Source: Xanthostigma xanthostigma
Taxonomy: Eukaryota; Arthropoda; Insecta; Raphidioptera; Raphidiidae
Direction of reading: 5' to 3'
DNA length: 64,000 nucleotides
Assembly: GCA_963575645.1 (NCBI GenBank)
Contig: OY754470.1
Location: forward strand, 50,189,201-50,253,200
Position numbers and translations under genes: made by a program. The notes under the pieces were generated by a model. That model ran no database searches, was not told the DNA's origin, and saw only the letters and a list, made by a program, of their open reading frames with translations. Shown here piece after piece: positions 11,590 to 47,097 of the stretch; the stretch's first letter is position 1, and each line of letters opens with the position of its first letter.

Positions 11590-11672
11590 CTATAACAATA
11601 TTTCTTTTTTTTCAGGTGAGTAAAACAACTGCTTTTATTCATTCGTTTACGATGGGGGAAATATTGGTAAGC
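11590..11672 (+). promoter_or_regulatory. Candidate recursive (ratchet) splice site 1
   Basis: A CTATAAC branch-point-like word (11590-11596), an almost pure pyrimidine tract (11601-11613) and CAG (ending 11615) are joined directly to GTGAGT (11616-11621). The 3' and 5' splice sites thus abut with no exon between, as in ratchet points of long insect introns. A second 5' splice site, TTG|GTAAGC, follows at 11666/11667, which would define a 51-nt recursive-splicing exon. No coding exon was identified nearby. The site is on the same strand as the one at 47039. It could be a chance match, but all elements are close to consensus. Confidence 0.6.
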
Positions 11673-29934: not shown

Positions 29935-30532
29935 TTGGTTGTCTGTAAAGTCGGTTTACGGACGATAGTTTTACGTGATAACGTATTCCGTAATACATAA
30001 CCTAAATTTATATAATAATTATAATAATTCGAATCTATGATATTGCATCTTTTGCTTCAAATTTAGGTTAATTTTATTTATTTAAATTACTCACCATATA
30101 ATATAATTGTTTTTTTAACTTTCTTTCTTTCGTATTTATTTTAAGTCTCAAAGATTAGCTGTCATAATATTTATAAAACAATTGTTTCACTGTTTATATA
30201 AAATTCCAAAACCTACTTACAATATTTAAGTATTTTCATACGTCAAAAAATTGATTTTTACAATGATAAAATTTGTAAGAAAACGATTTTTTCGAGAGAT
30301 GAGACCTAGCTAAAACGATTTTTTGCCCCCCAAAATCCCTTTTCAGTAAATTTCATCCAAATCGTTAGGGCCGTTTTCGAGAAAAGCACGCACAGGGTCA
30401 GGTGGAACGTTACGAACGTTAGGAACGTTAGGAACGTTAGGAACGTTACACTTTTTCGTACATGCAGCCGGTGTTTTATCAATTTATAAGATTGGTGATT
30501 CATCAATTTATAAGACGTTATCACGTCAAAAA
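29935..30532 (+). mobile_element. ACGTGATAACG-ended repeat, copy 1
   Basis: The left end TTGGTTGTCTGTAAAGTCGG continues to TTTTACGTGATAACG; the right end is AATTTATAAGACG then CGTTATCACGTCAAAA, an inverted repeat of the left inner motif with one indel. The interior holds a 'TTTCATCCAAATCGTTAGGG' stretch like a LINE 3' end, a CACGCACAGGGTCAGGTGG stretch, a 9-bp minisatellite (30405-30449) and a GCAGCCGGTGTTTTATC stretch. Copies lie at 44424-44609 and 45697-46416, with a right half at 45120-45270. Family unnamed; no coding remnant. Confidence 0.75.
30405..30449 (+). repeat. 9-bp minisatellite (GGAACGTTA)n
   Basis: Five copies of GAACGTTAS inside the ACGTGATAACG-ended repeat. Its reverse translates as repeated FLT codons, which is a repeat artefact. 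Confidence 0.9.
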
Positions 30533-44423: not shown

Positions 44424-44609
44424 TTGGTTGTCTGTAAAGTCGATTTACGGACGATAGTTTTACGTGATAACGAATTCCGCTCGAATATCATATTTAATAA
44501 TACATTACTGCGCTCTCGCTTGCACGCACAGGGTCAGGCGGAACGTTACACTTTTTCGTGCGTGCAGCTGGTGTTTCATCAATTTATAAGACGTTATCAC
44601 GTCAAAAAC
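44424..44609 (+). mobile_element. ACGTGATAACG-ended repeat, copy 2 (short)
   Basis: Same ends as 29935-30532 (TTGGTTGTCTGTAAAGTCG and TTATCACGTCAAAAA). The interior is reduced to a CCGCTCGAATATCATATTTA stretch, the CACGCACAGGGTCAGGCGG stretch and the GTGCAGCTGGTGTTTCATC stretch. Confidence 0.8.
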
Positions 44610-44610
44610 T

Positions 44611-44906
44611 TAGTCCGCCATCTTTAGAAGTCCGCCATATTGGATTTAAACTAAAGTCACTTTATTTTTCGAGTTATTCTCAGCAAGTCCTTTCATTTGA
44701 TACCCATATTGTAGGAAAGCATAATAAAATTAGTCCGCCATCTTTAGAAGTCCGCCATATTGGATTTAGAGTGACGTCACTTTATTTTTCGAGTTATTCT
44801 CAGCAAGCCCTTTCATTTGATACCCATATTGTAGGAAAGAATAATAAAATTAGTCCGCCATCTTTAGAAGTCCGCCATATTGGATTTAGAGTGACGTCAC
44901 ACAGCT
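44611..44906 (+). repeat. Tandem array of an exact 120-bp unit
   Basis: TAGTCCGCCATCTTTAGAAG begins at 44611, 44731 and 44851, so the period is exactly 120 bp over about 2.5 units with a handful of substitutions. Each unit contains GTCCGCCATATTGGATTTA, a TTTCGAGTTATTCTCAGCAA stretch and CATTTGATACCCATATTGTA. Because 120 is divisible by three, a frame stays open across it and gives 40-residue protein repeats; I regard that as an artefact. Confidence 0.95.
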
Positions 44907-45116
44907 AACTATGCATTGTCATTCAAACTTAACCTGTATACAAATTTTCATCTCAATCGGTTGATGATATCTGCTTCAAAATTACCGAAGGCATTTCCGC
45001 CATATTTAGAAGTCCGCCATATTGGATTTAGAGTGACATCACACAGCTAACCATGCATTGTCATTCAAACTGAACGTGTATACAAATTTTCATCTCAATC
45101 GGTTGATGATATCTGC
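44851..45116 (+). repeat. Second-order duplication containing CATCTCAATCGGTTGATGAT
   Basis: The stretch from GTCCGCCATATTGGATTTAG through CACACAGCTAAC, GCATTGTCATTCAAAC and TTTTCATCTCAATCGGTTG to GATGATATCTGC occurs at about 44868-44984 and again at about 45014-45116. The 'TACAAATTTTCATCTCAATC' wording resembles a LINE 3' end. Confidence 0.85.
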
Positions 45117-47000: not shown

Positions 47001-47097
47001 CATGTTTCTTTTACTAACTCTGATTTCTATTTGTTTCAGGTAAGTTCTCCAACTATGAACATACTAGATCCGGTCAAAATATATATTTAGCGTAAGT
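47001..47097 (+). promoter_or_regulatory. Candidate recursive (ratchet) splice site 2
   Basis: TACTAAC (47012-47018), the ideal branch-point sequence, is followed by a pyrimidine-rich tract and CAG ending at 47039. This abuts GTAAGT (47040-47045), a full-consensus 5' splice site. A second 5' splice site, AGC|GTAAGT, lies at 47091/47092 and would define a 52-nt recursive exon. It is not inside any repeat I recognised, and it shares strand and layout with the site at 11615. In long insect introns such sites let the intron be removed in steps. No coding exon is visible on either side, so the host gene is unknown. Confidence 0.7.

Follow-up and report, generated by a model that had tools for sequence, protein, structure and literature searches.

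The sequence around position 47040 of the window (the whole 64,000-nt stretch analysed here, C7:50189201-50253200, where C7 is the contig that holds it in a genome of 623 Mb and 28 contigs) is very probably an intronic ratchet point of the Drosophila type with a cryptic RS-exon, placed on the plus strand of a 1.19-Mb intron of a Bruno-3/CELF-type gene. The initial annotation had proposed a functional ratchet point of a long plus-strand intron, and this proposal gains support from four features of the sequence: the splice signals themselves, the host intron, a series of fused sites confined to the sense strand (5/6 of them with a donor about 50 nt downstream) and a genome-wide class of such sites. 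The coordinates are collected in Table 1.

Table 1. Positions of the predicted splicing signals and of the exons of the host gene. Plain numbers refer to the window, numbers preceded by C7 to the contig.
Feature	Position	Strand	Basis or remark
Branch-point-like TACTAAC	47012-47018	+	Motif match alone; no genome-wide enrichment in such context
Pyrimidine tract and 3' splice site, ending TTTGTTTCAG	47019-47039	+	14/18 bases preceding CAG are pyrimidines
Predicted ratchet-point 5' splice site GTAAGT, fused to CAG 47037-47039	47040-47045	+	Direct reading; 16-mer core TTTGTTTCAGGTAAGT
Putative cryptic RS-exon, 52 nt	47040-47091	+	Bounded by the GTAAGT fusion and GTAAGT at 47092
Putative RS-exon 5' splice site GTAAGT	47092-47097	+	Direct reading; weaker context, AGC before the donor
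Second predicted ratchet point, CAG/GTGAGT	11613-11621 (C7:50200813)	+	14/18 pyrimidines upstream
51-nt putative RS-exon (cryptic) belonging to the second ratchet point, with donor GTAAGC	11616-11666	+	Open in phase 0, frame-preserving
Six tract-plus-fused sites	C7:50090157, 50137834, 50200813, 50236237 (site under study), 50271436, 50342923	+	314-kb scan; putative RS-exons of 48, 46, 51, 52, none and 50 nt, in this order
Upstream predicted ratchet points, large intron	C7:49297086, 49369393, 49611392, 49861996, 49922053	+	Exact-pattern matches
Predicted ratchet points, preceding intron	C7:49044191, 49124125	+	Exact-pattern matches
Host intron, 1,186,579 nt, phase 0 (holds the whole window, 1-64000)	C7:49196574-50383152	+	Exons from protein search, base-level reading
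Upstream exon of the Bruno-3/CELF-type gene	ends C7:48936540	+	CELF-type query, base-level reading
RRM1 exon, 83 nt	C7:49196491-49196573	+	CELF-type query, base-level reading
49-nt exon, MNRPIQVKPADSENRG	C7:50383153-50383201	+	CELF query, base-level reading
126-nt exon	C7:50413981-50414106	+	Protein search, base-level reading
80-nt exon	C7:50426599-50426678	+	Base-level reading; boundary set by eye
Further exon	starts near C7:50451540	+	CELF-type query

Direct reading of the sequence confirms, to the base, the arrangement that the initial annotation had described: a TACTAAC, a pyrimidine tract, a CAG joined without interval to GTAAGT, and a second AGC/GTAAGT 52 nt on. The candidate branch A is 47017, located 22 nt upstream of the last base of the AG. 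The site thus agrees with the (Y)nNCAG/GTRAGT consensus of Drosophila-type intronic ratchet points and is followed by a short cryptic exon with a donor of its own. On a hand-made, untrained position weight matrix the donor at 47040 scores 11.2 and that at 47092 scores 6.7, and when the ratchet donor was placed behind the RRM1 exon it outscored the RS-exon donor in 5/5 sites.

The window lies entirely within an intron of a gene transcribed from the plus strand. The lead to this gene was supplied by a search for the RRM family (RRM_1), which gave a partial RRM at C7:50413989 on the plus strand. The remaining exons were then located in order on the plus strand of C7 with a CELF-type query, their boundaries being set by base-level reading. 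The encoded protein carries RRM1 and RRM2 of the CELF type, as expected for the Bruno/CELF family. For the RRM2 exon the six best PDB chains were CELF2, CELF1, CUG-BP1, 'trinucleotide repeat containing 4' (TNRC4, which we take to be CELF3), Bruno-like 5 and Bruno-like 4. As RRM2 scores best with the chains of TNRC4 (75.6), Bruno-like 5 (69) and Bruno-like 4 (66.6), with 55.9 for RRM2 of CELF2, we assign the gene to the Bruno-3/CELF3-6 type, a name that follows these scores rather than a tree. Two other approaches to the host gene were given up: a search for the I-set family was a wrong guess, and scoring of ORFs and exons over 314 kb missed the 49-nt exon and recognized no coding exon apart from a Tc1/mariner-like transposase. 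One ORF of the 314-kb region, compared with PDB, gave a chance-level match only (E 0.24).

Several other elements were seen in the region. A transposase-like ORF, by eye of the Tc1/mariner type, occupies C7:50325013-50325305 on the minus strand. Four ORF-like stretches with few AT-rich codons are found on both strands within the otherwise AT-rich intron (C7:50255801-50256078, 50336337-50336696, 50356799-50357038 and 50378964-50379320); they may be GC-rich islands of the kind formed by alternative promoters or first exons. Within the window, tandem arrays with units of 120 and 142 nt that have a TCCGCCATATTGGATTTAGAGTGAC-like sequence in common extend from 44606 to 45116, and a 24-nt repeat, with copies at 30470 and 45208, looks similar on inspection by eye to sequence next to the 83-nt exon.

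AT-rich intron DNA is rich in T tracts and in TACTAAC, and a chance juxtaposition of splice-like motifs has to be weighed for any single site. Indeed, the initial annotation had estimated that a bare YAGGTRAGT should occur about once per strand in the window, and the numbers observed, 8 on the plus and 1 on the minus strand in 264 kb, agree with this in magnitude. We therefore counted tract-plus-fused sites, i.e. those with at least 13/18 pyrimidines upstream of [CT]AGGT[AG]AGT, and those that in addition have a GTRAG closing an exon of 35-65 nt. The 314 kb of contiguous sequence contain six of the former on the plus strand and none on the minus strand, and five of the latter on the plus strand and again none on the minus strand; as the local criteria were chosen after the site had been seen, the fair counts are the other five and, with exons, the other four. 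By comparison, 60 order-3 Markov sequences yielded a mean of 0.12 tract-plus-fused sites per strand (maximum 2) and none with a donor. The asymmetry is the same in the 293,952 nt that belong to the host intron (6 vs 0), which is the enrichment of the sense over the complementary strand expected of ratchet points. Plain donors there number 112 on one strand and 121 on the other, and tracts followed by YAG 465 and 386; it is thus the fused sites themselves that are asymmetric. The initial annotation had also argued that the added signals make chance much less likely. This is borne out by the Markov sequences for the tract and the downstream donor, but not for the branch point: a TACTAAC 10-30 nt upstream of CAGGTAAGT occurs 7 times genome-wide vs 6 times in the reversed control, so that the perfect TACTAAC is compatible with function but adds little, and we rejected it as a discriminator. 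Given these counts, and the genome-wide excess over controls and the same-strand runs described below, we consider a chance origin of the site very improbable.

The site under study is one member of a long series. The large intron contains at least 11 predicted ratchet points, all on the plus strand, and the exact-pattern lists (three patterns) hold no minus-strand site inside the Bruno-3/CELF-type gene. The part from 49.2 to 50.09 Mb of C7 was covered by exact patterns only, and further sites may therefore exist there. The steps between C7:50090157 and the 49-nt exon measure 47.7, 63.0, 35.4, 35.2, 71.5 and 40.2 kb. A donor in the range of an RS-exon follows 8/11 of the predicted sites of the intron, among them three of the upstream ones (49297086 at 45 nt; 49611392 and 49861996 at 54 nt); none is in range at C7:50271436, 49369393 and 49922053. 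Six RS-exons of the intron were translated (that at 49297086 and those of the 294-kb part), and 5/6 contain a stop in phase 0. The exception is the 51-nt exon at 11616-11666, which has the open, frame-preserving form of the Ubx type and may be an expressed alternative exon. A search for copies of the C7:50342923 site found none, and in the 30.8-kb intron 3' of the 49-nt exon we found no plus-strand fused site with at least 11/18 pyrimidines.

Sites with this architecture form a class throughout the genome. The 16-base core of the site under study, TTTGTTTCAGGTAAGT, is found 99 times (61+38) vs 0+0 in the reversed control, the corresponding GTGAGT core, TTTGTTTCAGGTGAGT, 150 times (100+50) vs 0+0, and TTGTTACAGGTRAGT 84 times (41+43) vs 1+0; matches of the GTGAGT core were not entered in the host-gene series. 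The pattern CAGGTAAGTN{35,65}GTAAGTA, which includes the downstream donor, has 57 matches vs 13 in the reversed control. For a further pattern we counted 118 vs 10 on the reverse strand; the forward count, 459, was set aside, since matches with overlapping starts inflate it. The 99 places with the core of the site under study are also clustered and co-oriented: 34 pairs of neighbours lie within 250 kb of each other, all 34 on the same strand, while uniform placement (with the sizes of several contigs approximated) gives a mean of 4.4 pairs and a maximum of 11 in 2000 runs. For neighbours within 500 kb, strands agree in 38/39 cases, vs a mean of 20.4 and a maximum of 31 in 5000 rounds of shuffled strands.

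To assess the exon itself we took a sample of 20 core sites regardless of their downstream sequence (five from the host gene, three from contig C2 and 12/13 of the rows from contig C1; C1:35222420, of which C20 carries an identical copy, was omitted). A GTRAG is present 35-70 nt downstream in 16/20 of them, in 15 cases as GTRAGT or GTRAGC; donors at 7/12 of the C1 sites had already been visible from an earlier pattern list. As controls, the interval of 80-115 nt gave 3/20 and the antisense strand 1/20. With 4/20 sampled core sites and 3/11 sites of the intron lacking a donor in range, the RS-exon is not universal. A second Bruno gene is found on C2 (region C2:66742267-67097068, with exons at 66963759, 66996857 and 67096781), and it has ratchet-like cores of its own on the plus strand at 66742267, 66785096 and 66887957, upstream of its RRM1 exon.

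A 120-nt stretch at C2:26182229-26182347 has the same layout as the site under study, and it raised the question of whether both are copies of a mobile or duplicated module. The BLAST match (E 1.9e-7, 74% identity) is restricted to the module, and this C2 stretch is the sole other place among the matches listed for a 600-bp search. When the common signals are taken away, the two exon interiors rank only 34 of 1596 pairs and 44/2000 shuffles score as high. Also, C2 has its own plus-strand run of three exact ratchet cores within 131 kb (26182279, 26272768 and 26312981), and among the 60 matches listed for the CELF-type query no Bruno exon lies near the stretch. We therefore rejected a conserved paralogous module, having neither a nearby Bruno exon nor unusually similar exon interiors, and regard a module copy in general as the least probable of the explanations considered. 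Convergence is the best explanation of the C2 look-alike, which thus gives no evidence of conservation.

It might also be argued that the 52-nt exon is an expressed and regulated RS-microexon, comparable to the 51-nt exons of Ubx, which some mRNAs keep, either as coding sequence or, in the role of a poison exon, to reduce the level of Bruno-3 protein. Both splice sites are present, and the exon is open in phase 2. However, the intron is of phase 0, and in this phase the exon carries a TAG at codon 17; as this stop stands at the end of the exon, retention would truncate the protein. Its length, moreover, is not a multiple of three, and inclusion would add a frameshift besides the stop, in contrast to the frame-preserving, open exon expected of a Ubx-type microexon. 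In the excerpt of PMC8605326, intronic ratchet exons of the fly are described as nearly always skipped. We consider a retained microexon improbable, if somewhat less so than a chance origin, although the exon may still have a poison role.

For the preferred reading, a ratchet point with a cryptic RS-exon, the DNA suggests the following course of splicing, including its order and the choice of donor. The upstream 5' splice site, either that of the RRM1 exon or that of the preceding ratchet point, would be spliced to the AG that ends at 47039, with the 3' splice site recognized through exon definition with the help of the 52-nt cryptic exon and the donor at 47092. The junction would rebuild a strong GTAAGT at 47040, which would beat the apparently weaker donor at 47092. 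The rebuilt donor would then be spliced to the ratchet point that follows, at C7:50271436 or 50342923, and eventually to the 49-nt exon. The mRNA would retain no part of the site.

Ratchet points in Drosophila introns have reportedly been described by Burnette (2005) and RS-exons in vertebrates by Sibley (2015), and the kind of element found here is already known; what stands out is how large the intron and how long the series are. The site is like Drosophila ratchet points in its fused 3' and 5' splice sites, its place on the sense strand of a long intron, its RS-exon of about 50 nt, the apparently weaker closing donor and the stop in the host frame. The same architecture, i.e. ratchet points with RS-exons of about 50 nt, was reported for the fly by Joseph 2021, and in the fly model recognition depends on the RS-exon, which is then lost because the ratchet donor wins (excerpt of PMC8605326). 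Exon definition followed by a competition of donors that decides on skipping, and a stop within the exon, are also common to vertebrate RS-exons, according to the summary in PMC8605326. In contrast, vertebrate large introns have little enrichment of such sites (a ratio of 1.5 or less), whereas a computed enrichment in large introns is given for fly, mosquito, bee, beetle and sea urchin (both from the available part of PMC2773006); the class is thus expected in invertebrates. A literature search, judged from titles and the beginnings of abstracts in a collection with few subscription journals, found nothing on ratchet points in Lepidoptera.

The scale differs from that of the fly. The portion of PMC6110457 at hand gives a mean recursive segment of 9.1 kb and at most seven high-confidence sites in one intron, compared with the six steps of 35-72 kb predicted here from DNA in an intron of 1.19 Mb. 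It is possible, though somewhat short of probable, that this intron is removed in at least 12 steps via at least 11 ratchet points, with steps of tens of kilobases, and that the distance between ratchet points is not constant but grows with the size of the intron.

A related case is provided by Bruno-3 of Drosophila itself, for which Kandul and Noor 2009 described a stop-bearing 'nonsense exon 4a' of 452-454 nt between conserved splice sites and attributed it to recursive splicing (excerpt of PMC2767349). The same source places this piece in a 36-kb intron between exons of 49 and 135 nt. Our gene belongs to the same family and repeats the order given there, an exon of 49 nt preceding one of 80 nt, with 126 nt here vs 135 nt in the fly for the exon between them. 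Unlike the fly piece, which in the same excerpt follows the 49-nt exon, the ratchet series described here lies upstream of it.

It is in flies, with introns of tens of kilobases, that recursive splicing was elucidated. The sequence analysed here points to the same device, together with its cryptic exon, operating genome-wide in another animal and in an intron of megabase size. This genome would thus allow two ideas to be tested in nature: that ratchet points exist in order to divide long introns into steps of tolerable size, and that the RS-exon is generally required.
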